Source: Bacteroidota bacterium (GTDB taxonomy: Bacteria; Verrucomicrobiota; Verrucomicrobiia; Methylacidiphilales; UBA1321). Taken from it: DNA of 35,354 bases. This document shows positions 1,100 through 17,890 of the stretch, piece by piece. The stretch's first letter is position 1. Each line of letters starts with the position of its first letter. A model generated the notes under the pieces. The model did not search any database and was not told the origin of the DNA. It worked only from the letters and a program-made list of their open reading frames with translations. Both the position numbers and the translations under genes were made by a program. The stretch spans positions 1 through 35,354 of the forward strand of contig CAJCII010000150.1 of NCBI GenBank assembly GCA_903970335.1, written 5' to 3'.

Positions 1100-1273
1100 T
1101 TGGCGACAGCCACGGTCAAAAGAAAGTTGATAAAGACATGCAGGGAGCTAAAGCTGTTACGAGATGGATTGAGTTTAAGCCTAACTGACGCGCACAATGC
1201 AGAGGAATTCCAACGACGAAAAGCCAGCGCGTCTTCGTCGTTATTCGGTGAAAGAGGGCGTTGGCGGTTGTAG
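1100..1273 (+). CDS. Possible small ORF with strong ribosome-binding site
   Basis: A textbook AGGAGG (1087-1092) sits seven bases before a TTG that opens a 57-codon frame. The product would be basic (KRK, RRK and RGR clusters), and its last 77 bases overlap the start of the next gene in a different frame. I recognise no family. It may be a translated leader peptide or translational-coupling ORF for the downstream gene, whose own start lacks a Shine-Dalgarno, or the AGGAGG may be fortuitous. Confidence 0.25.
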   Translation: MATATVKRKLIKTCRELKLLRDGLSLSLTDAHNAEEFQRRKASASSSLFGERGRWRL

Positions 1274-2522
1274 AGTGCCGGTAGCCGCGATACTTTTGCT
1301 CGTTTCAGTCGCGGCGTTTCTGCCGGCATGGGGCGATACGTCGGAACCGACGGGACAGAGTTTCGGGCAACATATCCTCTACCATCAGGATGAAGTTACG
1401 CCGTTTCTCAAGCAGCATCAGGAGGAAATCTACCGGGAGGGGGAGCCGCAATTTTTGTTTATTCTGGGCAGTGTGCTGGCGCTGAATCTTGTCGTGGGTT
1501 GGATCGTCGATGTTATTTCCGCTTTTTATTTTTCGCGCGTGTTCGCGCCCACCTTTGCGAAGCTGACGCAGGCGTTGTGGTTTGCGACGGGGCATCTCGT
1601 TCTCATCATGCTGACCGGAATTTTCATCTTGTTCCTGTTTTTTATCGTAGGAATCTTTTTGCCGTGGATGCTGTTCGTGCTTTTGATCGTTTTGCTGATG
1701 GGCGCGGTTTTTATCATCCAAACGATCTGGGTCAGTTTTAATTACCGGACAAGTTCCAACGTTTCCGGGCAATTTTACCTGATGATTTTCGCCGTGCACT
1801 CCCTTGCCTTGGGGCTTTGTTTTCCGATTACGAAGATGCGGACAGCGAGCATGATGTCGGCGCTGACCAACCAAGTAGCCATTCCGCAGTTGGATATTTA
1901 CATGGACGACCGAAAGCATGCGCTGACCGACGCGGAAAAAGCACGGGACGAGGTGAAGGGAGAAATAGCCGCCGCACAAGCCCGTATCGACCAAGCCAGT
2001 GCCCAACAGGCGGAGTTGCGGAAGGAAATCGCGGAGAAGAAGGCCAGCGAATTTTACGTTTTCTGCCGCATTGTCCATCTCCATGCCGAGGGCGATCTGA
2101 CGGTGGCCCACGATCAGTTAAACGCCTTTTTGGTGAAATTCCCCAATGGCAAGTTGATCGAGCAGGCCAAGGCGCAATTAACCCAGATCGAAACGGAGTT
2201 GGCGGCCCTGGATGCGCAGAAGAAGCAGGCGGAAGCTGCGGCAGCGCAGGCGGCGGCGAATGCCCGTGCGGATTTTCTGGCCCGAGCGGGCCGGGGTGAA
2301 ATCACCCTCTCCGAAATGCATAATGCGCTGCAAGGGAAGACTCCGGCGGACGTGAAGGGGCTGTTTGGCGATCCGGCGTTGGTGGAGGCGGGACAATGGG
2401 GGTACAACCAGCAGATGGTCTTCAATCCCCTGACGAACGAGAAACATGGCCTCACGATTTATTTTGTCGAAGGGATTGTCCAGAGCGTCGATTACTATGA
2501 CGGGAGCGGAGATTCGAGATGA
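1197..2522 (+). CDS. Multi-pass membrane protein with coiled coil and BamE-like C-terminal domain
   Basis: I do not recognise a named family for this 441-residue protein. The layout visible is a signal anchor or signal peptide (about 28-46), four hydrophobic segments (about 86-110, 130-152, 155-180, 192-210), a coiled coil (243-283), a short helical-repeat-like stretch ending FPNGKLIEQA (314-323), an Ala/Gln/Lys-rich helix (325-358) and a compact C-terminal domain (357-436). That domain has the pattern DVKGLFGDP, then WGY, then YFVEGIV, reminiscent of BamE/SmpA-type folds. The same C-terminal part recurs in the next gene, which overlaps this stop by four bases. The start is uncertain: ATG 1197 has no clear Shine-Dalgarno, and GTG 1275 would give a cleaner signal peptide. 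Function unknown. Confidence 0.75.
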   Translation: MQRNSNDEKPARLRRYSVKEGVGGCRVPVAAILLLVSVAAFLPAWGDTSEPTGQSFGQHILYHQDEVTPFLKQHQEEIYREGEPQFLFILGSVLALNLVVGWIVDVISAFYFSRVFAPTFAKLTQALWFATGHLVLIMLTGIFILFLFFIVGIFLPWMLFVLLIVLLMGAVFIIQTIWVSFNYRTSSNVSGQFYLMIFAVHSLALGLCFPITKMRTASMMSALTNQVAIPQLDIYMDDRKHALTDAEKARDEVKGEIAAAQARIDQASAQQAELRKEIAEKKASEFYVFCRIVHLHAEGDLTVAHDQLNAFLVKFPNGKLIEQAKAQLTQIETELAALDAQKKQAEAAAAQAAANARADFLARAGRGEITLSEMHNALQGKTPADVKGLFGDPALVEAGQWGYNQQMVFNPLTNEKHGLTIYFVEGIVQSVDYYDGSGDSR

Positions 2523-3289
2523 AGCGAAATGGTTTTATTTCGATGGGCATGGCGGTGGCGGGATTCACCCTCGCAGTCGTGCCAGGTCGGGCCGACGTGG
2601 GGATCAATTATTCGTCCGACCAGTTGGACATCATGGACGACTGGGGATTTTTTCCTCCGGAATTTAAAGCCCGGGTGGAAGACCTGTTCGACACGAACAA
2701 AGCCATTATCAAGGCCCAGAACGACGAGGCGGAGCTTAAGTTGGAACTTCCCGATTACCTAAAGAAGGCCGATGTCGCGGAGGCGAAAGAGGATGAGATC
2801 CGGCAGGAACTGGCCGATTACGATCATACGGACGAGACCGATTTCGTGCAGTTGCAGAAGGACCTGAACGATCCGAAGGCGAAGCTGGAAGACTTGATCA
2901 AGGAGGCGCAGGAATTTGTTTGGGCGTACTCGACGAGTCCGCACTTGGCGGAGGCCCAGCAATACCTGCAACAGGCGCAACTGAAAGAGGCCAACGAATC
3001 CCAGGAGGAAAAAGACGCCGAAGCCGCGCGCGTGGCGGCACGGGCGAAGCTTCTCCAGCGTGTCCAGGCGAGGGACTTGAGCCTGCAGGAGTGGAGGGAT
3101 TTTCTGTATAATATGTCGGAGGAAGACGTCGTGAGGTACATTGGCCAGCCCGATGCCGAGGAGGACGATTACTGGCTTTATTCCGGCGACTTTACCCAAG
3201 ACCCCAAAACGCTCAACAAGGTCGGCTTGCGGCTTAATTTTAACGCCGGACGGATTGTGACTATTCTGGCGCTGCCGCACGCGCAGTAG
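2519..3289 (+). CDS. Secreted coiled-coil protein, paralogue of the upstream C-terminal domain
   Basis: This 256-residue product begins with a signal peptide (MKRNGFISMGMAVAGFTLAVV, cleavage probably near residue 25) and should be periplasmic or exported. Charged helical regions (about 50-130 and 140-185) precede a C-terminal domain (about 175-252) that aligns with the end of the preceding protein: ARA, then DLSLQE, EDVVRYIGQP, W-Y, KVGLRLNF, then AGRIV. It has no membrane segments after the signal, so it looks like a soluble partner of the membrane-bound paralogue. The ATG overlaps the upstream stop (ATGA) and has GGAG seven bases before it, supporting this start and translational coupling. 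The histidine kinase gene follows after 10 bases. Function unknown. Confidence 0.75.
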   Translation: MKRNGFISMGMAVAGFTLAVVPGRADVGINYSSDQLDIMDDWGFFPPEFKARVEDLFDTNKAIIKAQNDEAELKLELPDYLKKADVAEAKEDEIRQELADYDHTDETDFVQLQKDLNDPKAKLEDLIKEAQEFVWAYSTSPHLAEAQQYLQQAQLKEANESQEEKDAEAARVAARAKLLQRVQARDLSLQEWRDFLYNMSEEDVVRYIGQPDAEEDDYWLYSGDFTQDPKTLNKVGLRLNFNAGRIVTILALPHAQ

Positions 3290-3299
3290 TGCGGGTTGC

Positions 3300-4766
3300 G
3301 TGCCAAGGGGAATGCAGCTAAAATGGCCCATGTGGGAACCGAGGGCCGTTATTAAAGATGGGTTGAGGAGATGGGCGGCGCTTTTAGACAATCCTCTGCC
3401 GGATCACCTGCGTGCCGATCCCGAGAATGCACGGCGTGCCCGGCTTTTGGTGGGGTTTGGCGTGCTGGGGTCGTGTTTCGGGCTGGTCTATGCGCTGTTC
3501 TATCTGCTGATCGGTCATTACTGGGGGGCAGGGATTGTTGTTTTTTGTACGATGGGAGTGGCCCTTTCCCCCTTTTTGATGTGGAAAAGCGGGTCGATGC
3601 TATTAGCGGGGAATTTTTTCGCGGCGATTTTGACCCTTGGCTTCTTGGGTCTTTGTCTGGTTGAGGGCGGGGTGCATGGTCATGCGATTGCATGGCTGGT
3701 CAGTGTGCCGCTGTGCGCCTTGGTGTTGACCGGGGTGCGCCCGGCGATCAAGTGGGTGGTGATTGCATTTCTGGCCGCCGCCATCGTGGTTGGACTTGAT
3801 CTCGTCGGGATCGAGCTCCCGGTGACGTACGATCCGAAATGGGGTCCGCTGGTGACAGCAGCCGGTTATTTGGGGCTGGTCGTTTTCATGTTCATTCTGG
3901 GATTTATTTTCGAGAACGGGCGTGCCTCCGCGTATGCGCAGATGCAACGGGCGTTGCGGGAGCTGGAAAAGACCAACGGCAAGCTGGTAGCGATGAACGC
4001 GGAAAAGAACGAATTTCTGGGCATTGCGGCGCACGACCTGAAGAATCCGCTTTCGGTGGTGCTGATGAACGGCGAGATGATCAAGGAGCTGGACGACGCA
4101 CGGCAAACGCCGGCTTTGGTGGATTCGATCATCGCGGCGGCCCAGCGGATGCACCGGTTGATTACGAACCTGCTGGACGTGAATGCGATCGAGGAGGGGC
4201 GCTTTACCTCGAATATCGTCAAGTGCGACTTTGGGGACCTGGTGCGGGAGTGCGCGAAGCATAATCTGCCCGGAGCGACCCATAAGGGGATATCCATCCA
4301 GCTCGACGTGCCGGAGGGGATTTTCGTTCGGACCGATTGCACGGCCACGGTGCAAATCCTGGACAATTTGATCTCGAACGCGATCAAGTACTCTCCGTTC
4401 GGGACGACTATCCAGGTGCGCCTACTTGGCGACGCCAACCACGCCTGGGTCGAAGTGAGCGATCAAGGGCCGGGGATTAGCACGGAGGACCAGAAAAAGC
4501 TGTTCCAGAAATACAGCCGCCTGAGTGCGGTGCCCACCGGAGGCGAATCGTCGACCGGACTGGGACTGGCCATTGCCCGGCGGCTGGCGGAGGCGATGTC
4601 GGGGAGCATCGAGTGTCGCAGCACGCTGGGGAACGGCTCGACCTTTTCGCTGCGCCTGCCCCGCTGGCCGAAGGAGGTGGTGGCACCGGTGGCAAGTCCG
4701 AGCACGTGCGTGAAAACGGGCAAGGTGAAAATCAGTATCGAGGCATCCCCGGTGGACGGCCTTTAA
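3300..4766 (+). CDS. Membrane-bound sensor histidine kinase
   Basis: This 488-residue kinase has about six transmembrane segments (roughly 48-71, 74-92, 101-121, 130-146, 149-170, 183-204), a short linker helix, a HisKA dimerisation domain and a HATPase domain. The H-box AAHDLKNPLS carries the phospho-accepting H245. The N-box LDNLISNAIKYSP, G1 box DQGPGIS and G2 box STGLGLAIARRLAE are all present, so the catalytic core looks intact. There is almost no extracytoplasmic domain, so the signal is probably sensed within the membrane or by an interacting protein. No response regulator is adjacent. The two upstream genes, 10 bases away, are probably co-transcribed and may supply the input. The start could be GTG 3300, ATG 3312 or ATG 3330. 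Confidence 0.9.
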   Translation: MPRGMQLKWPMWEPRAVIKDGLRRWAALLDNPLPDHLRADPENARRARLLVGFGVLGSCFGLVYALFYLLIGHYWGAGIVVFCTMGVALSPFLMWKSGSMLLAGNFFAAILTLGFLGLCLVEGGVHGHAIAWLVSVPLCALVLTGVRPAIKWVVIAFLAAAIVVGLDLVGIELPVTYDPKWGPLVTAAGYLGLVVFMFILGFIFENGRASAYAQMQRALRELEKTNGKLVAMNAEKNEFLGIAAHDLKNPLSVVLMNGEMIKELDDARQTPALVDSIIAAAQRMHRLITNLLDVNAIEEGRFTSNIVKCDFGDLVRECAKHNLPGATHKGISIQLDVPEGIFVRTDCTATVQILDNLISNAIKYSPFGTTIQVRLLGDANHAWVEVSDQGPGISTEDQKKLFQKYSRLSAVPTGGESSTGLGLAIARRLAEAMSGSIECRSTLGNGSTFSLRLPRWPKEVVAPVASPSTCVKTGKVKISIEASPVDGL

Positions 4767-5353: not shown

Positions 5354-6448
5354 CTAGGATTCGGGAGGAGTGAAGTAGATTTTGTCGAGCTTGTCGATGA
5401 AGTCGGTTTCTTCAATGCTGAGGAGGGCGCTGTTGAGTTGCTGGCGGAGCTTGCTGTTGCTTTGGAGGCCGAAGCCGTATTTTTGTTTTTCGAAGAGGTG
5501 TCCGACGAGATGGAGTTCGTTGGAATCGTTTTGGGTGAGATAGTACATCATGATCGGGGCGTCGTAGACGACGGCCTTGACTTTGTCGTGGCGGAGGGCA
5601 TCGACGGCGGCGTCCAGATTGGCGCACTCGACGACGTTGAGGTGCTGGGACTGGAGGTAGTGGTCGGCGGAGGTGCTTTGGATGGTGGCGACGGGTTTAC
5701 CTGCGAGGTCTTTCGGCCCCTTGATGTCGTTACCGAGGGAATCGACGGTCATGATGGTGGTGGCGGTGGCGGTGAGGTAGGAGATCATGGCAATGCCGAC
5801 CAAGGCCCAGGCGGTGCCGATGATGCGTCCGGTGAGGCCTTTGGGGTCTTTGTTCATGCACATACCGCCGATGAGGACGCAGGTGGTCCACCAGATGGAT
5901 TCGATCATGCCTTCGCCGTAGTGGTGGGGGAAGTCCTCGTGGTTATGTTTGCGTTCGAACCACCAGAGGATGTGGGAGACGATGATGAGGGCGACCATGA
6001 TGCCTGCGAAGGTGAGGACGAGGGAGGGGGTGAGGAGGCGTTCGATCAAGTCGAGGGGGCCGGGAGCACCGCCGCCCTTGACCATGATGTCGAGGCCGGA
6101 ATCGTAGAAGGGATGGGAGAAGTCGATTTCCTTGGAGCGTTCGGCGGTGATGGAGAGGGCACCGACGCCGACATCGGCCTGACCGGACTTGAGAGCGTCG
6201 ATCATTGCGGCGACGGTGTCGACTTTTCTGAATTCGACATCGGTCCATCCGGCATTGCGGGCGACTTCGTTCCAGAGGTCGATACTATAGCCGCTGAATT
6301 TGCCGGAGTCATCGACCATGACGAAAGGGGCAACAGGTTTGACGACGACAACGATGTGGTCGGCAAAGAGAGAGGAGGGGACGGCCAGGGTGAGGAGGAA
6401 CGCGAGGAGGAGCGATTTGAAGAGGGTGGGAAGGAAGGATTGGATCAT
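5354..6448 (-). CDS. Prokaryotic ionotropic glutamate receptor-like channel / solute-binding protein
   Basis: The 364-residue protein has the split layout of bacterial GluR0-like receptors. A signal peptide (1-29) is followed by ligand-binding half S1 (about 31-125), a first transmembrane helix (141-163), a re-entrant P-loop (about 182-197), a second helix (206-232) and half S2 (239-360). SITAERSKEIDF includes R104, equivalent to the receptor arginine that binds the amino-acid carboxylate. D296 (VVYDAPIM) is in the position of the acid that binds the amino group. The second helix carries SYLTATATT, resembling the SYTANLAAF gate motif. The pore reads TTCVLIGGM instead of the potassium filter TVGYG of GluR0. 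The ligand is probably an amino acid but is not shown. It follows ureD on the same strand after 88 bases, with a putative terminator between. Confidence 0.82.
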   Translation of the reverse strand: MIQSFLPTLFKSLLLAFLLTLAVPSSLFADHIVVVVKPVAPFVMVDDSGKFSGYSIDLWNEVARNAGWTDVEFRKVDTVAAMIDALKSGQADVGVGALSITAERSKEIDFSHPFYDSGLDIMVKGGGAPGPLDLIERLLTPSLVLTFAGIMVALIIVSHILWWFERKHNHEDFPHHYGEGMIESIWWTTCVLIGGMCMNKDPKGLTGRIIGTAWALVGIAMISYLTATATTIMTVDSLGNDIKGPKDLAGKPVATIQSTSADHYLQSQHLNVVECANLDAAVDALRHDKVKAVVYDAPIMMYYLTQNDSNELHLVGHLFEKQKYGFGLQSNSKLRQQLNSALLSIEETDFIDKLDKIYFTPPES

Positions 6449-6536: not shown

Positions 6537-7373
6537 TCAGGAACGTCTGGGATCGGGGACTTGTCGACCGAGTCGCTCGTAGATCAAGCGACGAAGGCCG
6601 GTAATGCCCCGGCGCAGGGAGAGGCTGTTGCGGGTGAGGAGGCGAAAGGACCATCCACCCGAGCAGAGTTTCGAGGCGGCGACGATGAGAGAGTTGGCCT
6701 CGCCGACGGTGGAGACACGGTGGGCGAAATCGGGGGGCCAGTTTTCACTGGCGGGGGAAATCAGGACGATCCCGGCATAATAGGAGGCGGGGAAAAGGGC
6801 GGTGAGTCCGGCGAGGCTGGAATCGTGCGGGGTAATGGAGGCGCGTTCGCGGAGGACGAGACGGTCGGCGAGGCGGAGGTCGGTGGACCAGGAATAACGG
6901 GCGAAGGCGAAGGTTTCCCCGGAGGCGACGCGACCCGGCGCGAGGGTTTCGAGGTAGAGGAGTTCGCCGCCGGGTTCGATGCGGATATCGGTTTTCTGGA
7001 AAGAGCGGGAATCGCGCTGGGGGATGGAAATTTCCGGGAAGATGTCGAGGCTGCCTCCGGCGCGGATGTCGAAGGCTTGTAGGAGGCAGGCTTCGCGACC
7101 GTGGGAGGGATGGAAGCGCGCGGCTGAGGGGCTGGTGAAGAGGACATGAGCGCCGGATTCGACGACGACTTGAGTGACAATGCGGTCGCCTCCGAAGACG
7201 CCAGCGGTCTGGTTGACGACGTTGACGAGGAGCGTTTCGCCGTTCCAATAGGTTTTGCTGAGATGCATCGGGGCGGAAAAGGACTGGGCGGCGAGGAAGG
7301 TTCCGCGCAACGGGTCGGAGGCGAAGACCAGGTGGAGATTTCCGGTCAGCGCGAGGCGGGCGCGCTCAGACAA
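6537..7373 (-). CDS. ureD: Urease accessory protein UreD (UreH)
   Basis: UreD is the scaffold that binds apo-urease and, with UreF and UreG, delivers nickel. The 278-residue product shows the family layout: an N-terminal GNLHLVF strand, [10 protein letters not shown], the conserved [12 protein letters not shown] segment, then [15 protein letters not shown] and [13 protein letters not shown]. The frame is open further upstream to 7622, but that part is a shadow of ureG. TTG 7373 is chosen because GGGAG (7385-7381) lies seven bases before it and because the first family-conserved residues follow at once; the next ATG would remove the N-terminal strand. It overlaps the ureG stop by eight bases and is the last gene of the urease unit. 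Confidence 0.9.
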
Positions 7374-8013
7374 AGAGGTACTCCCGTTTGAGCCAGGCGA
7401 GGAGGTCGTCACGACCGACGCCGGATTTGAGGTCGGCGAAGAGGAAGGGGCGTTGGTCGCGCATGAGGAGGGAGTCGCGGCGCATGACTTCGAGGTCGGC
7501 ACCGACATGGGGAGCGAGGCTGATTTTATTGATGAGGAGCAGGTCGCTGAAGCGGATGGCGGGGCCACCCTTGCGGGGGATTTTATCGCCTTCGGCGACG
7601 TCGATGACGTAGATGAAGGCATCGACGAGTTCGGGGGAGAAGGTGGCAGAGAGATTGTCGCCGCCGCTTTCGATGAGGATCAGGTCGAGGCCGGGATGGA
7701 GCCGTTCGAGTTCGCGGACGGCGGCCTGGTTCATGCTGGTGTCGTCGCGGATGGCGGTGTGGGGACAGCCGCCGGTTTCGACGCCGAGAACGCGATCGGA
7801 CGGGAGGGCGTGATGACGGACGAGGAACTCGGCGTCTTCGCGGGTGTAGATGTCATTGGTGATGACGCCGAGGCTGAAGTCGTCGCGGAGCCATTCGCAG
7901 AGGCGGAGGACGAGCATGGTCTTGCCGGAGCCGACGGGGCCGCCGATGCCGAGGCGAAGGATTCGTTTTTTGATGGAGGGCAGTGGGGAATCAGGAGATG
8001 AAGAGGCGCTCAT
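7366..8013 (-). CDS. ureG: Urease accessory GTPase UreG
   Basis: UreG is a SIMIBI-class GTPase whose GTP hydrolysis drives nickel insertion into urease. In this 215-residue protein the P-loop GPVGSGKT is at residues 25-32. The nickel-binding CPH motif is in [11 protein letters not shown]. The [17 protein letters not shown] stretch and the [14 protein letters not shown] guanine-specificity region are both present. There is no His-rich N-terminal tail of the kind some UreG proteins use for nickel storage. The start overlaps the end of ureF by 23 bases and the stop overlaps ureD, consistent with one tightly coupled operon. Confidence 0.96.
7381..7385 (-). promoter_or_regulatory. Ribosome-binding site deciding the ureD TTG start
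   Basis: On the minus strand GGGAG sits inside the last codons of ureG, seven bases before TTG 7373. It is the main evidence for a non-ATG start that would otherwise be missed. Confidence 0.6.
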
Positions 8014-8692
8014 AGGCTATTTCGTGTTGCATGGAGGCGATCTCGACGAGTGGATCGAACCAGCCGAGTTCGTCGTGTTCGATGGCAAGAGACAGGCTGA
8101 CGTTTTCTTCCATGCGCGAAAGGGAGGCGGTGAGAACGCGCTGGGCGGTGTTTTGTCCTAGGCGCAAAAGTTTTGGAGTGGAAAGGCAGACGGCGGAGAG
8201 GCTTTGAAAGGCCCACGAGGTCATCAGTGCGTGCGGTGGAAATGAGGCCAGTCCGGTTCCATAGACGACGGCGTGGTGGGCTGGGCAGCGACCTTCCTCG
8301 ACGGCGCGGGCGAGGGTGGCGAGGATGGGAGACGGGCCGGTTTCGCAGAAGGCGTGGAGTCGGCGCTGCCCGATGGAGCGACTGGCTTCGCGCAATTCAC
8401 GGGCGGTCTTGGTTGCGTCCACGTCGTTAGCGAGGGCGATCAGGCCGGGGAGATCGTTCTTTAGAGAGGCTTCCTGGGCAAAGCGAACCACGGGCAACTC
8501 GAAGTGAATGAGCATCGGCCAAAGGTGATGCTCAAGATAATGGCCCATCGATTTCTCATCGCGGACGAGGCCAAGGCGGACGGCCTGTTCGAAGCCCTGC
8601 GAGTGGGCGTAGCCGCCGGTGGGGAAGGCGGAGTCGGAGACTTGCAGGAGCCGGGCCAGCCAGGGCAATACGGGCGCGGTTTCGTTATCCAT
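7991..8692 (-). CDS. ureF: Urease accessory protein UreF
   Basis: UreF is a helical protein that bridges UreD and UreG in the urease activation complex and gates nickel transfer. The 233-residue sequence has the family hallmarks: [21 protein letters not shown] near the start, then [10 protein letters not shown] and HHAVVYG in the middle, and [12 protein letters not shown] toward the end. Length is typical. ATG 8692 overlaps the ureE stop by eight bases, and the 3' end overlaps ureG by 23 bases, so translation of the accessory genes is probably coupled. Confidence 0.94.
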
Positions 8693-9154
8693 GATGATGG
8701 TGCGCGGAGGCAGAGAGGGGCAGGAAGACGCAGCGGACGCGCTGGAAGGGGATGGCTTCGCGATGGAGGAGTTGCAGGACGGCGGGGTCTTCGGTCACAC
8801 GCACGGCGTTCGGGAGCACTTGGATGCCGAAGTGGAGATTGCCGAGATTCCAGGCGACGCGCGCGGCCTGTTCCGGGTTGGAGACGGGAATTTCGAGCAC
8901 GTCTTCGGGCGCTTGTTCGAGAACGTAGAGAGTTTCGCCTTCAACAAAAAAAGGGGTGCCGCGCGACAAGGACTCGTCGAGATCGAAGCCGAACGCCTTG
9001 CCGTCCTCCGCAACGCCGCGCCAGCGCCGTTTGGCGAGAGTGGCGCGATCGGCCAGCAAGCGCACGAGGTGACGATGACCATTGTGGTCGTGATGCGGCG
9101 GAATGCTTTGGATGAGAGTCAACTCGGCCATGGATTTTTCGGACCGCCTCGAAA

Positions 9155-9158
<4 letters not shown>
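8685..9158 (-). CDS. ureE: Urease accessory nickel chaperone UreE
   Basis: UreE is a dimeric metallochaperone that brings nickel to the activation complex. The sequence (up to 157 residues) has an N-terminal peptide-binding-like domain and a C-terminal metal-binding domain with [13 protein letters not shown], where the usual GNRH motif reads GNLH, then [12 protein letters not shown]. It ends in a short histidine tail (HHHHG), and there is an extra histidine cluster near the start ([11 protein letters not shown]), both possible nickel sites. The start is ambiguous. TTG 9158 overlaps the ureC stop, whereas ATG 9131 begins MAELTLIQ at the first family-like strand and gives 148 residues. Neither has a strong Shine-Dalgarno. 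Confidence 0.9.
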
Positions 9159-10900
<1,742 letters not shown>

Positions 10901-10924
10901 GCGTTTTTGAATTGAGGGGTGACG

Positions 10925-11239
10925 TCAGGGGAGAGGGCCATCGACGGCGTTGTTCAAGCCGTAGACTTTGCGTTGGCCCGCGAGCGCGACCAGGGTCACT
11001 TCCTTGGTGTCGCCCGGTTCGAAACGGACGGCGTTGCCAGCGGGGATGTTGAGGCGAAAGCCCAGGGCCTTTGCCCGATCGAAAGAAAGAGCGCTGTTCA
11101 CTTCATAGAAATGAAAATGGCTGCCGACCTGAATGGGACGGTCACCGGTGTTGGAAACGGCGAGGCGAAATTCGGGCAGACCAAGATTGGCCTGAAGCGG
11201 TGCGGCGTCGATGGGGGTGCGAATTTCTCCGGGGATCAT
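10925..11239 (-). CDS. ureB: Urease beta subunit UreB
   Basis: This 104-residue structural subunit packs between UreA and UreC in the urease trimer. The family pattern is clear: MIPGEI at the start, then [17 protein letters not shown] (about 29-45), [16 protein letters not shown] and [11 protein letters not shown]. It is a separate polypeptide, not fused to UreA as in Helicobacter. ATG 11239 overlaps the ureA stop by four bases, indicating coupled translation. Confidence 0.97.
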
Positions 11240-11538
11240 CGGATGGGGTGGTGGATCGTGACGAGCTTGGTGCCGTCGGGGAAGGTGGCTTCGACTTGCA
11301 CGTCGTGGATCATTTCCGGAACGCCATCCATGACGTCGTCGCGCTTGAGGAGGGTGGTGCCGTAGCTCATGAGGTCGGAGACGGTGCGACCGTCGCGCGC
11401 GCCTTCGACGATTTCGTAGGTGATGATGGCGACCGACTCGGGGTAGTTGAGCTTGAGCCCGCGCTTTTGGCGACGGCGGGCCAAGTCTGCGGCGGTGACG
11501 ATCAAAAGCTTTTCTTGTTCGCGTGGGGTCAGGTGCAT
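11236..11538 (-). CDS. ureA: Urease gamma subunit UreA
   Basis: The 100-residue gamma subunit is the first gene of the urease unit. It shows the canonical [13 protein letters not shown] opening, [16 protein letters not shown] (about 20-35), [13 protein letters not shown] (39-51) and the C-terminal [20 protein letters not shown]. Length is normal. No Shine-Dalgarno precedes the ATG. The region between this gene and the divergent hybrid kinase (11539-11724) must hold the urease promoter, but I could not pick a convincing -35/-10 or sigma54 element there. Confidence 0.97.
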
Positions 11539-11724
11539 GGGGTGTCGATTGGCAGATAGCGTGACAAGAATTTCGGAGGATGCAATCCCAAGGCGGAACG
11601 GAGGTTGTCGGTAATTTTCGTATGGGGATATTTGCGGCTTGTCGGATGATTACTCTTGGACTGTGATACCCGAACTTCAGAAGGGGCGGGGCCCCGATCT
11701 GCGGGGAACTTTACCAATGCGGAA

Positions 11725-14700
11725 ATGAACTCGATTCCGTCTCAATTAAAAAACACCGCCACATTTTGGTCGGTGCAGTTTTTGGCGGCGGCTCTGACGA
11801 TCGCGGTGGTGGTTACCATGGTGTTGGCGGCCCAGTCGTTTCTTTGGCAATACACGGTAAGCGATGTGGTCCGCAGCCGGATGGATGCGCTCGATCGAAA
11901 TGCTTTTTTGACCGAATCGCGTGTCCGGCGGCTGGCCAACGACATGTTTTTCGTCAAGAGCGTGACCGAAGCGGAATTGGTGAGAAACCCAAAAGCTCCG
12001 GTTGCGACCGAGACGTTGCGCGGGGCGGTCAAGACGATGATGTTGGCGCAAAGCAAGTACGACAATATCCGGCTGCTCAGTCCGTCGGGGATGGAGATTT
12101 ACCGGGTGAATTGGCAGGGCGGGCTGGATCCTCTTTACGAGGTCCCGGACAAGGAGCTGCAGGACAAGTCGGACCGTTATTTTTACCGGGAGACGCTGCA
12201 GGCCTCGCCGGGAGACGTGGTCTTTTCCCCGATGGACCTGGATGTCGAGCACGGTCAGATCGTGCAGCCGCCCAAACCGACCCTGCGGGTGAGCGGACAA
12301 ATTGTCGGCCCGGACGGCAAGCTGCGGGCCATCGTGGTTTTGAACCAGACCGGGGAGCTGTATTTTCGGGAGCTTAGGCAGGAGCGCGGTCAACCGTGGC
12401 AAAGTATGTTGCTCAATGCCGACGGCTATTGGCTGGTGGGGGCCACCCCCGATTCCGAATGGGGCTTCCAGTTGCCGGGCCGGAAAGGGAAAAACCTCAA
12501 GACCGAGGACCCCGAATTGTGGAATAAAATCAGCACGAATCGAGCGGGGTGGTTTGAGGACAAGGGAAACCTGTACTGTTTCGAGCGGATCGATCCGCTG
12601 AACGCCGGGTCGGATAATGCGCCATTGCGGATGCCCGTGGTGGGGGACGAGCGGCTGCACTGGATTTTTCTGACCAAGGTGCCGGATGAAGTGGTGTGGG
12701 CAAACGTCCAGGCCATCCGTTTGGGGACATGGGAATCGGGGGCGATGGCGGTGGCGGTGTTGGTGCCGGTGGTCAGTCTGGGGCTTTTTTCGTTGCGACG
12801 GCGCCAACTGGCGGTGGGGGAACTGAGCGAGGCGCGCACGCTTTTGGACGGGGTCATCGGCATGTCGCTGCATGGTATCGTGGTGATGGAAGCGGTTCGC
12901 GACGAGAATGGCCGCATTGCCGATCTCCGACTGGTCCTGGCCAACCATTCGGCCACCACTTTTCTAGGGAGAGACCTGGCCCAATTGCAGGGAAAAACGA
13001 TCCTGGAAGTAGATCCCGGAAGCCGAAAGGAAGGGGTTTTTGCGCGTTATTGCGATGTCGTCGAATCGGGCGAACCGGCCAGTTTCGAATACTTGTACAA
13101 GAACGGAAAGTTAGAGAAATGGCTTTTTATCCGCGCGGGCAAGCGGGAGGACGGGCTTGTCGTCAGCCTGGCCGACATTACCTCCCGAAAACTCGATGAG
13201 GAAAAGCTACGTCAGAGCGAATTGTTGCTGCAGATGACGGGCCAGATGTCGAAGGTGGGGGGGTGGAAGGTCGAGTGGCCGAGTCGGGAAATAAGCTGGA
13301 CGGAGGAGGTCTATCGGATCCACGAGTTGCCTCTGAATCACACTCCGTCGCTGGACGAGGAGATCAATTATTATGCGCCGGAGTCCCGGGAAACGATCCG
13401 CCGGGCCTTCGAGGCCTGCGTCGTCGAGGGCAAGGAGTACGATCTCGAGCTTGAGTTTATCACGGCAACGGGACGACGCATCTGGGTGCGAACGATGGGG
13501 CGACCGGAGCGCCAGGATGGCCAGTTGCGGCGGGCAATCGGGACGTTTCAGGACATCACCGTGGCCAAGCGGGCCTTGCTGGAGTTGCACGACAGTCAGG
13601 AGCGTCTGATGAAATCGCTGGCGCAGGAGCAGGAACTGGCGCGCCGAGCCCAGGCGGCGGAGCGGGCCAAGGGCGAATTTCTGGCGGTGATGAGTCATGA
13701 GATACGCACGCCGCTCAATGGAGTGATCGGCATGACGAGTATTTTGGCCGATACCGTGTTGAATGACCTGCAGCGGGACTGTGTGAACACGATCCAGACC
13801 AGCGGGGAGGCGCTTCTGAGCGTGATCAACGACATCCTCGACTTCTCGAAGATGGAGTCGGGAAAGATGAACCTGGAAAAAAGGCCTTTCAGCGTGGCGC
13901 AGTGCGTGGAGGAATCGGTGGACCTTTTTGTGGCGCAGATCCGGAAGAAGCGGCTCGAGGCGGCCTACTTGATCACCTCCGATGTGCCGGCGAGTCTGAT
14001 CGGCGATTCCAATCGTTTGCGCCAGGTCTTGATCAACCTGATCGGGAACGCGATCAAGTTTACCGAGCGGGGGGAAATCATCATCAACGTGCAATGTCAG
14101 AGCCGCGACGAACGGGGATTCCATCTGCTTTTTTCGGTGACGGACACCGGGATCGGTATTTCACCGGAGGGGGTCGGGAAGCTGTTTCAGTCCTTCCAGC
14201 AGGTGGACAGTTCCACGACGCGGCGCTACGGCGGGACGGGGCTGGGGCTGGCGATCAGCAAGCGTCTGGCGGAGTTGATGGGCGGGACGATGTGGGTGGA
14301 AAGCGAAGTGGGCGTGGGGTCGACTTTTTTCTTTTCGGTCATTCTCGAGGCGAGTCCGACGCTGGCGGCACTGAATACGTCGGAAGGAAGCGGAATCCAG
14401 TCGTCTTCCGCCCTGATCGTGGACGACAACGCCACCAACCGGCGCATGTTGGACGAACAACTGAAGGCGTGGGGGATGAAGACGGTTTCCGTCGCGTCCG
14501 GGCAGGACGCCCTGGCGAAACTGGCCGGAGCGGCATTCGATGTCGTGCTGCTCGATTTGCAGATGCCGGGCATGGACGGGGTGAGCCTGGCACGGGAGAT
14601 CCGAAAGAACAGTCAATCGCCGTTGATCCTGCTTTCGTCGTCAGGCGAAATCGAAGTGGGGGAAGCGGCGCATCTTTTCCAACACCAGGTGCCCAAGCCG

Positions 14701-15180
14701 ATCAAGCAATCGGTTCTCCACAATGTCTTGGAGCAGGTGACGGGGGTGGCGCGGGAAAAGCAAAAATCGGGCGTGACGCAGTTCGATCACGATTTGGGCG
14801 GGCGCGAGCCGCTCCGCATCTTACTGGCGGAGGACAATAAGGTGAATCAAAAGGTCGTGACGATGATGCTGGCCCGGCTCGGTTACCGGGCGGATTTGGC
14901 GGGGAACGGATTTCAGGTCCTGGAGGCCCTCGAAAAGGGGACTTACGATTTGGTCCTGATGGATGTGCAAATGCCCGAGATGGACGGGATCGAGGCGACG
15001 CAGCTATTGCGGGAGAAGTTGGCGGGGGACTGTCCATACATTTGCGCGCTGACGGCCGAGGCCCTGGAGGGAGACCGGGACCGGCTGATCGGGATCGGGT
15101 TCGACGATTATCTGAGCAAGCCGCTGAGTCCCGAAAAACTGCGGGCGGTGTTGCAGGAGGTTGCGCTCAAGCGAGGGTGA
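11725..15180 (+). CDS. Hybrid sensor histidine kinase with Cache, two PAS and two receiver domains
   Basis: From ATG 11725 this is a 1151-residue membrane kinase. A first transmembrane helix is followed by a large extracytoplasmic region of Cache (PDC) type (about 11870-12700), a second helix (12740-12795), PAS domain 1 (12830-13190), PAS domain 2 of PAS_3 type (13200-13560), a coiled linker, HisKA with H658 (MSHEIRTPLNG), HATPase (NLIGNAIKFTE, DTGIGIS, GGTGLGLAISKRL) and two receivers. The predicted phospho-acceptors are D944 (VVLLDLQMPGMDG) and D1080 (VLMDVQMPEMDG). The Cache domain suggests sensing of a small molecule outside the cytoplasm. It lacks an Hpt or DNA-binding output, so it must signal to another protein. 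The frame is open back to TTG 11656, but the ATG lies just before the first helix. It diverges from ureA. Confidence 0.93.
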   Translation: MNSIPSQLKNTATFWSVQFLAAALTIAVVVTMVLAAQSFLWQYTVSDVVRSRMDALDRNAFLTESRVRRLANDMFFVKSVTEAELVRNPKAPVATETLRGAVKTMMLAQSKYDNIRLLSPSGMEIYRVNWQGGLDPLYEVPDKELQDKSDRYFYRETLQASPGDVVFSPMDLDVEHGQIVQPPKPTLRVSGQIVGPDGKLRAIVVLNQTGELYFRELRQERGQPWQSMLLNADGYWLVGATPDSEWGFQLPGRKGKNLKTEDPELWNKISTNRAGWFEDKGNLYCFERIDPLNAGSDNAPLRMPVVGDERLHWIFLTKVPDEVVWANVQAIRLGTWESGAMAVAVLVPVVSLGLFSLRRRQLAVGELSEARTLLDGVIGMSLHGIVVMEAVRDENGRIADLRLVLANHSATTFLGRDLAQLQGKTILEVDPGSRKEGVFARYCDVVESGEPASFEYLYKNGKLEKWLFIRAGKREDGLVVSLADITSRKLDEEKLRQSELLLQMTGQMSKVGGWKVEWPSREISWTEEVYRIHELPLNHTPSLDEEINYYAPESRETIRRAFEACVVEGKEYDLELEFITATGRRIWVRTMGRPERQDGQLRRAIGTFQDITVAKRALLELHDSQERLMKSLAQEQELARRAQAAERAKGEFLAVMSHEIRTPLNGVIGMTSILADTVLNDLQRDCVNTIQTSGEALLSVINDILDFSKMESGKMNLEKRPFSVAQCVEESVDLFVAQIRKKRLEAAYLITSDVPASLIGDSNRLRQVLINLIGNAIKFTERGEIIINVQCQSRDERGFHLLFSVTDTGIGISPEGVGKLFQSFQQVDSSTTRRYGGTGLGLAISKRLAELMGGTMWVESEVGVGSTFFFSVILEASPTLAALNTSEGSGIQSSSALIVDDNATNRRMLDEQLKAWGMKTVSVASGQDALAKLAGAAFDVVLLDLQMPGMDGVSLAREIRKNSQSPLILLSSSGEIEVGEAAHLFQHQVPKPIKQSVLHNVLEQVTGVAREKQKSGVTQFDHDLGGREPLRILLAEDNKVNQKVVTMMLARLGYRADLAGNGFQVLEALEKGTYDLVLMDVQMPEMDGIEATQLLREKLAGDCPYICALTAEALEGDRDRLIGIGFDDYLSKPLSPEKLRAVLQEVALKRG

Positions 15181-15190
15181 GAGCAGGTGA

Positions 15191-15208
15191 GCGGCGATTA
15201 CGCGCCGC
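15191..15208. terminator. GC-rich hairpin between convergent genes
   Basis: GCGGCG (15191-15196) and CGCCGC (15203-15208) form a perfect 6-bp stem with a six-base loop, in the 17-base gap between the hybrid kinase stop and the convergent receiver-PATAN gene. The stop of the latter lies within the loop. No T-tract follows on either strand, so a role in termination is only suggested by position. Confidence 0.3.
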
Positions 15209-15986
15209 CGTCCCGATAGAGCCTGGTTCCCTCTTCGGGCAGGTCGGTGTCTTCGGCAGTATCGACGTGGATGGCGGCCTGAAGCAGGAGATGCTCCCAA
15301 CTGGTTTCGATGGAGACGGGCACGGGGGCCATCCAGTCCTTCACCTTGAGCAGGGGACTGGGGAGTTGCATGAGGGCGTAGAAGGCTTCGTTCCCGGCCA
15401 TGCCGAGGAAATCGGCGTGGATGACGCGGCCCCGCTGGATGTAGATTTCTCCCATGACCTGCCGGTTTTGCGGTTCGACGGTGATGACGATATTGCGTCC
15501 GTTGAGGCAAAAGAGCTGGACCAAATCCTGGAGTTTGAAGTGGTTGAGCCCGGTCGATTCGGCGGCGGCTGGGGGTGCCTGAGGCGTGGGGGCGGGAGGC
15601 GCTTCCGGCTCCGGGTTGTCCAGCATTCGGAAATAATTTTCCACGAACTGGATCAGCGCCGAGATCTGGAAAGGCTTCTCGAGGAACTGAAGGGCGCCGA
15701 GGTCGAGGGCCTGCTGCTTGTTGGCGGCAGAACGGTAGGCCGTCATGAGGATTGAGCTGACGCCGGGATGGGAGCGGTTGATTTCCCGGATCAAGTCGAA
15801 GCCGGAATCTTTTCCGATGCGGACATCGCTGATGACGAGATCGACTTTTTTTTGCGCGACGAGGGGGAGGGCCTCGGCGAATTTGCTGGTGGAAAAGACC
15901 GCGATGCCGGAGGCGCGGCGGAATTCGCGTTCCAGGATCAGCAGGATGTCTTCCTGGTCATCGACGATCAAAATTTTTCTAGGCAT
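15198..15986 (-). CDS. Response regulator with C-terminal DUF4388 (PATAN-type) domain
   Basis: The 262-residue protein joins a receiver domain (residues 3-120) to a DUF4388/PATAN-like domain (about 146-250) through a Pro/Ala-rich linker. The receiver has the acidic pocket VDDQED (8-13), phospho-acceptor D54 (LVISDVRIG), T82 (MTAYRS) and K104 (FLEKPF), so it should be phosphorylated normally. The C-terminal part shows the PATAN pattern GEIYIQRGRVIHADFLGMAG, NEAFYAL. PATAN domains are protein-interaction or regulatory modules in signalling proteins. There is no DNA-binding domain. The convergent hybrid kinase is an obvious but unproven partner. The start ATG has no Shine-Dalgarno. Confidence 0.86.
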   Translation of the reverse strand: MPRKILIVDDQEDILLILEREFRRASGIAVFSTSKFAEALPLVAQKKVDLVISDVRIGKDSGFDLIREINRSHPGVSSILMTAYRSAANKQQALDLGALQFLEKPFQISALIQFVENYFRMLDNPEPEAPPAPTPQAPPAAAESTGLNHFKLQDLVQLFCLNGRNIVITVEPQNRQVMGEIYIQRGRVIHADFLGMAGNEAFYALMQLPSPLLKVKDWMAPVPVSIETSWEHLLLQAAIHVDTAEDTDLPEEGTRLYRDGGA

Positions 15987-16090
15987 GTCAATCTTATGGC
16001 GGCGAAGAACATCGACAGGGGTTCGTTTACCTTAGCGGGAGGCACACGTCCTAGCAAGATTCGATCCATCATGGCAAGGATGTTTCTTTT

Positions 16091-17890
16091 GTGTCTCGGG
16101 TAGGCATGGGCCGTGCTTTGGGTCGAGCCGTGACCTCGAATAAACGACTCATCCTGTTGGGTGCCTCTCTGGCCTTCACCGTTTCATCCGTCTTCGCGCA
16201 GACGTCGCCCCCGGCGAACGCACCCGCTCCGGTTTATTCCTATCCGACTCCTTCGGCCCCGGCTCCGGCGCAACCGGATGCGCAGATGCAGCAGTTGCAG
16301 GCGCAGGTGCAGGAATTACAAAAGCAACTCTCGCAGGTTTCCAACACGGTGGACCAGCAGGCCGGTCAGATCGCGCCAATCAAGGACACGCTGGACAAAA
16401 CTCTGCAGGTCACGGACACGCTTTCCCAATCGATCAAGCAGACGACGGAGACTGCGAGTGAGGTGGCCAAAAAATATAGCGAGGTCAAGGACACGACCTC
16501 CCTCTCGATCAATATCTCCTGGACGCTGATCACCGGATACTTGGTCATGTTCATGCAGGCCGGTTTTGCCATGGTCGAGTGTGGCTTTTCGCGGACCAAG
16601 AACGCGGCCCACACGGCGATGCTCAATTTCATGATCTATTCCCTCGGTATGCTCGGATATTGGGTCAGCGGCTTCGCTTTCCAGTTCGGCGGAACCGGTG
16701 CTGCTGGCCCCGGCACTTCCGATTTGTCCGTCAGTACCGTGGGTTCGCTCGGGCCAAATGTGGCCACGGTGCTCAATCAGGAGCTGGGCTTCCATTACGG
16801 CGACATGAAATTCGGCCTACTCGGAGATTCGGGCTTCTTCCTGTTGGGGAGTGCCTACGACCCGGGCATCTATACCTTGTTTCTTTTCCAGATGGTCTTC
16901 ATGGACACGACGGCCATCATTCCGACCGGTGCGATGGCAGAGCGCTGGAAATTTCTTTCCTTCGCGATTTACGGCTTCATTGTCGGTGCGTTTATCTACC
17001 CCGTTTTTGGTAACTGGGTCTGGGGCGGCGGCTGGCTCGCGGCCATGGGCGCTAATTGGGGGCTGGGGCACGGTCACGTCGATTTTGCCGGATCATCGGT
17101 CGTGCACGTTGCGGGTGGCACCATAGCGTTTGTCGGTGCCTGGATGTTGGGGCCCCGCATCGGCAAGTACAACGAAGACGGCACGCCCAACCCGATCCCC
17201 GGGAGTAACATTCCCTTGGCCATTCTCGGTACTTTCATTCTGGCTTTCGGCTGGTTCGGTTTCAATCCCGGCTCGACGCTCTCGGCGATGGACACGCAGA
17301 TTGGCATTATTGCCACGAACACCATGCTTGCGTCCGGCGCGGGGGCTGTTGCCGGGATGGCGGTGGCATGGATTCGTATTGGCAAGCCCGATCCTTCTTT
17401 TTGCTGCAATGGCATGCTGGCCGGTTTGGTGGCAATCACCGGACCATGCGCCTTTGTGGACGCCTGGGCGGCGGTGGTGCTGGGAATTGGAGCGGCCATC
17501 GTCATGTATTGCGGCGTTTTCTTCGTGGAAGAAAAGCTGAAGATCGACGATCCAGCGGGGGCCATCTCCGTTCATGGCTTGGCTGGCGTCTGGGGAGAGT
17601 TTTGCCTGGGCATTTTCGCCAATGGCAAGTATGGCGATGGTTGGAACGGCGTTCCCGGAAAAGTAAGTGGCATCTGCACTTGGGTCGATGGCGTCTGGAC
17701 ACCCAACTACAAGCAAATCCTGGCCGAGATGATCGGTGCTTCCACCTGCATCCTGTGGATCGGCGGCTCGAGTTTTGTAGTTTTCTACATCCTCCACTTG
17801 GTTATCGGTAACCGCGTCTCCGCAGAAGCCGAAATGGAAGGTCTCGATGGTCCGGAAATCGGCGTGCTCGGTATTAATAACGCGCCCTAA
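16091..17890 (+). CDS. amt: Ammonium transporter (Amt family) with N-terminal coiled-coil extension
   Basis: Amt proteins are trimeric inner-membrane channels for ammonium. The core (about residue 138 onward) shows MVECGFSRTKN, the family signature DTTAIIPTGAMAERW and the twin pore histidines H339 (VVHVAGG) and H495 (ISVHGLAGVWG). Before it lies a signal peptide ending near VFA (34-36), a Pro/Ala-rich stretch and a coiled coil (about 64-135), which should be extracytoplasmic. At 599 residues it is well above the roughly 400-450 of plain Amt proteins. No glnK (PII) gene adjoins it. GTG 16091 has AAGGA ten bases upstream; ATG 16106 is an alternative start that keeps the signal peptide. Urea breakdown by the nearby urease makes ammonia, so the two probably serve one nitrogen pathway. 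Confidence 0.93.
   Translation: MSRVGMGRALGRAVTSNKRLILLGASLAFTVSSVFAQTSPPANAPAPVYSYPTPSAPAPAQPDAQMQQLQAQVQELQKQLSQVSNTVDQQAGQIAPIKDTLDKTLQVTDTLSQSIKQTTETASEVAKKYSEVKDTTSLSINISWTLITGYLVMFMQAGFAMVECGFSRTKNAAHTAMLNFMIYSLGMLGYWVSGFAFQFGGTGAAGPGTSDLSVSTVGSLGPNVATVLNQELGFHYGDMKFGLLGDSGFFLLGSAYDPGIYTLFLFQMVFMDTTAIIPTGAMAERWKFLSFAIYGFIVGAFIYPVFGNWVWGGGWLAAMGANWGLGHGHVDFAGSSVVHVAGGTIAFVGAWMLGPRIGKYNEDGTPNPIPGSNIPLAILGTFILAFGWFGFNPGSTLSAMDTQIGIIATNTMLASGAGAVAGMAVAWIRIGKPDPSFCCNGMLAGLVAITGPCAFVDAWAAVVLGIGAAIVMYCGVFFVEEKLKIDDPAGAISVHGLAGVWGEFCLGIFANGKYGDGWNGVPGKVSGICTWVDGVWTPNYKQILAEMIGASTCILWIGGSSFVVFYILHLVIGNRVSAEAEMEGLDGPEIGVLGINNAP

Follow-up and report, generated by a model that had tools for sequence, protein, structure and literature searches.

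The locus considered here raises a question of grouping: two adjacent genes whose protein products resemble each other are followed on the same strand by a histidine kinase gene, and it must be asked whether the three form one functional unit or whether the first two stand on their own. We analyzed these genes in a 35,354-nucleotide stretch of Methylacidiphilales DNA (the window), for which an earlier note had proposed a three-gene sensory unit. The layout described there, with a 4-base ATGA overlap between the first two genes, a 10-base gap and a six-TM histidine kinase, was accurate in all of its coordinates (Table 1); the kinase starts with a GTG codon at position 3300, 10 bases past the end of gene 2.

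Table 1. Features of the locus, in window coordinates.
Feature	Coordinates	Strand	Details
Gene 1	1197..2522	+	441 aa
Gene 2	2519..3289	+	256 aa
ATGA stop/start overlap of genes 1 and 2	2519..2522	+	Present in 6 of 8 pairs
Histidine kinase	3300..4766	+	488 aa; six TM segments, HisKA and HATPase_c; considered to be adjacent by chance
Gene 1 BamE-like C-terminal region (predicted)	2274..2519	+	Residues about 360-441; profile, Pfam PF04355, hhalign
Gene 2 BamE-like C-terminal domain (predicted)	3068..3286	+	Residues 184-256; AlphaFold2 and Foldseek

Judging from sequence comparison, the similarity between the gene 1 and gene 2 proteins is not due to chance. First, a BLASTP alignment of the pair (E 1e-6) extended across about 200 residues, and all of the motifs previously quoted as shared (ARA, DV, G-P, W-Y, K-GL and F--G-IV) were aligned in this match. 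Second, the C-terminal domains of the window pair alone gave z = 10.6, a score that was not reached by any of 2000 shuffles, and the signal of the helical part alone was weaker (z = 4.1; 4 of 2000 shuffles reached the score). Third, profile-profile comparison with hhalign, using family alignments with eight members per gene, related the C-terminal domains with 99.5% probability across 78 columns and the whole soluble parts with 99.8% probability across 202 columns. In addition, AlphaFold2 models of both proteins displayed the same order of elements: a long helix, two short helices, a second long helix, two further short helices and strands. This common order, together with homology over about 200 residues, showed that a whole module had been duplicated. 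Thus, the homology claimed earlier for the C-termini was real, but its extent had been put too low at 80-130 residues.

The two copies of the module appear to be presented differently. In gene 1, hydropathy analysis revealed a signal-peptide-like segment (residues 27-45) and four TM segments (about 86-104, 135-153, 159-177 and 193-211), followed by a soluble part comprising a long helix (209-282), a TPR-like helix pair (285-314), a second long helix (321-365) and a BamE-like domain (371-434). The gene 2 protein has a signal-peptide-like segment without a lipobox and no further TM segment by hydropathy, and its soluble part repeats the series (long helix 47-100, helix pair 105-136, long helix 143-183 and BamE-like domain 189-252). 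Inspection of the sequences found no lipobox in gene 1, no cysteine in the signal region of gene 2 and no lipobox in the orthologues of either gene. Because the signal-peptide-like N-terminus of gene 1 is followed by four TM helices, with R/K present in the loops predicted to be cytoplasmic, its C-terminus would be periplasmic and should share this compartment with the gene 2 product. The earlier contrast between a membrane-embedded and a secreted protein therefore holds for gene 1, whereas the gene 2 product is better described as predicted periplasmic. Both the localization and the fold of the two proteins are predictions only.

The BamE-like and TPR-like assignments are supported by several lines that are individually weak and agree with each other. 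The gene 1 family profile matched the PDB entries of BamE (5wam, E 5.3e-4) and of the CpoB TPR domain (6g5s, E 7.8e-4), and the Pfam BamE profile (PF04355) matched three of the eight gene 1 family members (best E 9.7e-4), one orthologue lying above the gathering cut-off in a genome scan. Neither of the window's own two proteins passed the PF04355 profile, and single-sequence Pfam and NCBIfam scans of both returned coiled-coil noise only. Structure models pointed in the same direction, bearing in mind that the alignments behind them were shallow, with 6 and 3 sequences (pTM 0.39). The C-terminal domain of gene 2 was modelled as two helices and three strands, with pLDDT about 80-92 over most of the domain; its elements (H189-196, H201-208, E218-227, E234-242 and E245-252) are those of a predicted, not a solved, structure. 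This layout agrees with the BamE-like fold, in which a two-helix hairpin precedes three strands (PMC12419801). When the gene 2 model was searched with Foldseek against PDB, BamE (5wam) ranked first with probability 1.00 and a weak E-value of 0.015, and BamD and BLIP-like proteins ranked below it. The gene 1 model retrieved the TPR hairpins of YbgF and BamD, with E-values that were all above 1 (YbgF probability 0.95, E 1.2); its TPR portion is a single helix pair resembling CpoB, with no array. The BamE/SmpA-like fold that had been suggested for the C-terminal domains was thus favored by profile, Pfam and fold searches alike. The link to BamE was visible only with profiles and structure: in pairwise sequence comparison, the C-terminal domains did not score above chance against the small BamE lipoprotein encoded in the window's genome (z about 1.4).

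Two other assignments were considered and set aside. The gene 2 profile matched KdpC (E 0.01) ahead of BamE (E 0.04), but the KdpC match covered residues 171-212 only, and the fold search gave BamE; the KdpC match was probably due to chance. A DUF4199 match to gene 1 (E 4.7e-5) occurred in one gene 1 orthologue and was absent from the others.

To what extent does the pair travel together? Genes 1 and 2 were adjacent and co-directional in all eight genomes that carried them, i.e. the window and seven others. Six of the seven remaining genomes of the genus carried the pair, as did a single genome from a second genus in the family; the genus member lacking it (G005) was only 65% complete. Identity to the window's proteins was 31-47% within the genus and 20-24% across genera, and the relatives recovered by profile search of genome contigs included an uncultured Verrucomicrobia bacterium (CAIPBM010000061.1) and a Candidatus Methylacidiphilales bacterium (JAJSLI010000070.1). 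No full-length pair was found elsewhere in 384 genomes of the class with the gene 1 profile or in 388 genomes of the phylum with the gene 2 profile, and outside the family the class-wide search returned just partial helical/TPR or BamE-domain matches. Among the genomes searched, therefore, sequence profiles found the pair only in two genera of one Methylacidiphilales family. In a tree of the modules, those of gene 1 and those of gene 2 formed two separate groups (96/94 support), each containing both genera, which places the duplication before the split of the two genera.

Based on these observations, the reading that we prefer, and hold with moderate confidence, is that genes 1 and 2 constitute a translationally coupled, lineage-specific envelope unit encoding a BamE/CpoB-like adaptor or scaffold anchored in the inner membrane, in which the kinase takes no part. 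Both genes would descend from a periplasmic module (long helix, TPR-like helix pair, second long helix, BamE/SmpA-like domain) that underwent tandem duplication long ago. Gene 1 would carry this module on a four-TM inner-membrane anchor, and gene 2 would carry it behind a cleavable-looking signal peptide, leaving its product untethered in the periplasm. Conservation of the overlap points to a need for a balanced supply of both products, which may bind each other, probably via their long helices. Since TPR-like and BamE-like surfaces serve elsewhere as protein-binding adaptors in envelope assembly, those of the pair would, by analogy, bind other envelope proteins, and the pair would most likely act as an inner-membrane-anchored accessory adaptor in envelope assembly after the manner of BamE, BamD, CpoB and YfgM. 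A more specific version, in which the membrane-anchored and free TPR-plus-BamE-like copies build a lineage-specific heteromeric scaffold that connects outer-membrane assembly with the inner membrane, is offered tentatively and considered rather unlikely.

Comparison with known systems helps to place this candidate adaptor. Both proteins share with the BamE/SmpA/OmlA family (PF04355) the predicted C-terminal two-helix and three-strand domain, and the BamE pattern G-x-T-x-x-x-V-x-x-x-x-G-x-P is intact in gene 1 and partly lost in gene 2. In contrast to canonical BamE, a small single-domain outer-membrane lipoprotein, they are 441 and 256 residues long and possess helical modules and no lipobox, and gene 1 has four TM helices. 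With CpoB/YbgF and BamD they have in common a TPR-like helix pair after a coiled-coil-like helix, as judged from profile and Foldseek matches, but there is one pair instead of a TPR array, and it is fused to a BamE-like domain. A short Foldseek match also pointed to YfgM-PpiD, in which a TPR protein anchored in the inner membrane serves as a periplasmic helical adaptor together with a chaperone; the likeness is one of analogy only, as the pair lacks a prolyl isomerase and YfgM possesses a single TM helix and lacks a BamE-like domain. At the level of fold, the pair is related to the BLIP-like superfamily (BLIP, PepSY, DUF2874 and SmpA_OmlA), of which SmpA_OmlA is a member (PMC2954215); BLIP and DUF2874 repeat the domain in one chain, whereas the two copies in the present pair are encoded by neighbouring genes. 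Our literature search found no description of a BamE domain combined with a TPR in the inner membrane. The pair is a new domain architecture inside a known superfamily and is confined to a narrow lineage, one in which outer-membrane biogenesis is poorly known. It extends the BamE-like superfamily by a four-TM, TPR-like and BamE-like arrangement and by a form made of two duplicated subunits.

Other functions were weighed against the adaptor reading. One is that the two proteins are BAM accessory subunits that in this lineage take the place of BamE and possibly also of part of BamD. The occurrence of a BamE-like domain and a BamD/CpoB-like helix pair in one chain would fit such a role, as would the report that BLASTP detected no BamE in Methylacidiphilum and Methylacidimicrobium (PMC10542722). 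However, genes for BamA and BamD-type proteins were located elsewhere in the relatives, on contigs other than that of the pair, and small BamE lipoproteins were encoded elsewhere as well, among others in the genome to which the window belongs (its incomplete assembly yielded no full BamA). The presence of all these genes elsewhere in the genus suggests that the pair is no simple replacement of BamE. Moreover, a lipobox is missing from both proteins, and the predicted location of the gene 1 product is the inner membrane. We therefore regard the pair as distinct from BamE itself, and the replacement hypothesis as improbable. Relatives from other families of the order had no pair and still possessed BAM components, indicating that any role of the pair is dispensable outside this lineage.

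A second possibility, to which we assign a similarly low likelihood, is an inhibitory or immunity function, in which BLIP/PepSY/BamE-like domains would bind a periplasmic toxin, a peptidase or a penicillin-binding protein and hold it in check. Inhibitory binding has been proposed for the BLIP-like superfamily including SmpA_OmlA (PMC2954215), and membrane-anchored BamE-like immunity proteins have been described (PMC12419801), but no toxin or peptidase was seen travelling with the pair, which is stably inherited across the genus, unlike a rapidly changing cassette.

With regard to the kinase, its HisKA (PF00512, E 5e-13) and HATPase_c (PF02518, E 8e-27) domains were clearly identified, its H, N, G1 and G2 motifs are intact, and hydropathy analysis gave six TM segments. 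In the synteny check across relatives, the pair had no kinase next to it in any of the seven other genomes carrying it, a pattern that the earlier note itself had named as one that would refute its proposal. A search with the N-terminal 237 residues of the kinase revealed an orthologue in only one of 14 relatives (G002), 77% identical over 466 residues when the full protein was compared; this genome also has the pair, and the two are unlinked, the kinase lying on contig C2 among different neighbours and the pair on contig C61. Five pair-carrying genus members and G008 had no orthologue of the kinase sensor region. A sensory unit, in which the membrane-bound and soluble proteins would sense a signal in the envelope and relay it to the neighbouring kinase, would be in keeping with the shared strand and ten-base spacing in the window, with the near absence of a periplasmic sensor loop from the kinase itself, and with the lack of a terminator-like site on the + strand between gene 2 and the kinase, but this distribution across relatives makes it highly improbable. 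The three-gene unit of the earlier note is thus not supported, and nor is its sensory role, for which a kinase adjacency that is not conserved had been the sole ground. The surroundings of the window's pair differ from those of the other pairs. Most plausibly, the kinase is an unrelated gene outside the unit that came to lie beside the pair later and by chance, so that a false lead is removed: the kinase is no conserved partner of the two-gene envelope unit.

The genes around the pair indicated no single pathway. The recurrent neighbour, seen in five relatives, is a same-strand gene of about 295 aa located upstream of gene 1 (4908-5795 in L020, with equivalents in L018, L019, L021 and L022); it has one TM segment by eye and no Pfam match, and no copy of it was found in the 84% complete assembly of the window. 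Between it and gene 1, these five relatives carry a gene for a 77-aa two-TM protein on the opposite strand. Further along the window, positions 5354-6448 on the - strand encode a 364-aa protein with SBP_bac_3, Lig_chan-Glu_bd and Lig_chan domains, which looks like a prokaryotic homologue of ionotropic glutamate receptors. It is followed by a nitrogen-related stretch (6537-17890) containing urease genes (UreF and the alpha subunit by Pfam), a hybrid kinase (11656-15180), a receiver-DUF4388 protein (15198-15986) and an ammonium transporter (16091-17890).

Finally, BamE-family matches were common across the order in an order-wide profile search, and profile searches may recover BamE missed by BLASTP in some genera. 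Small BamE-domain lipoproteins of about 90 aa often occurred in clusters of 2-3, for example in G005 (contig C2, L085), G004 (contig C42, L078) and G000 (contig C22). BamE-like domains were also seen at the ends of proteins made of many short repeats of the W-Y/H-x-x-G type (L063 in G249 and L061 in G269), and in G249 a second BamE-like protein adjoins the repeat protein.
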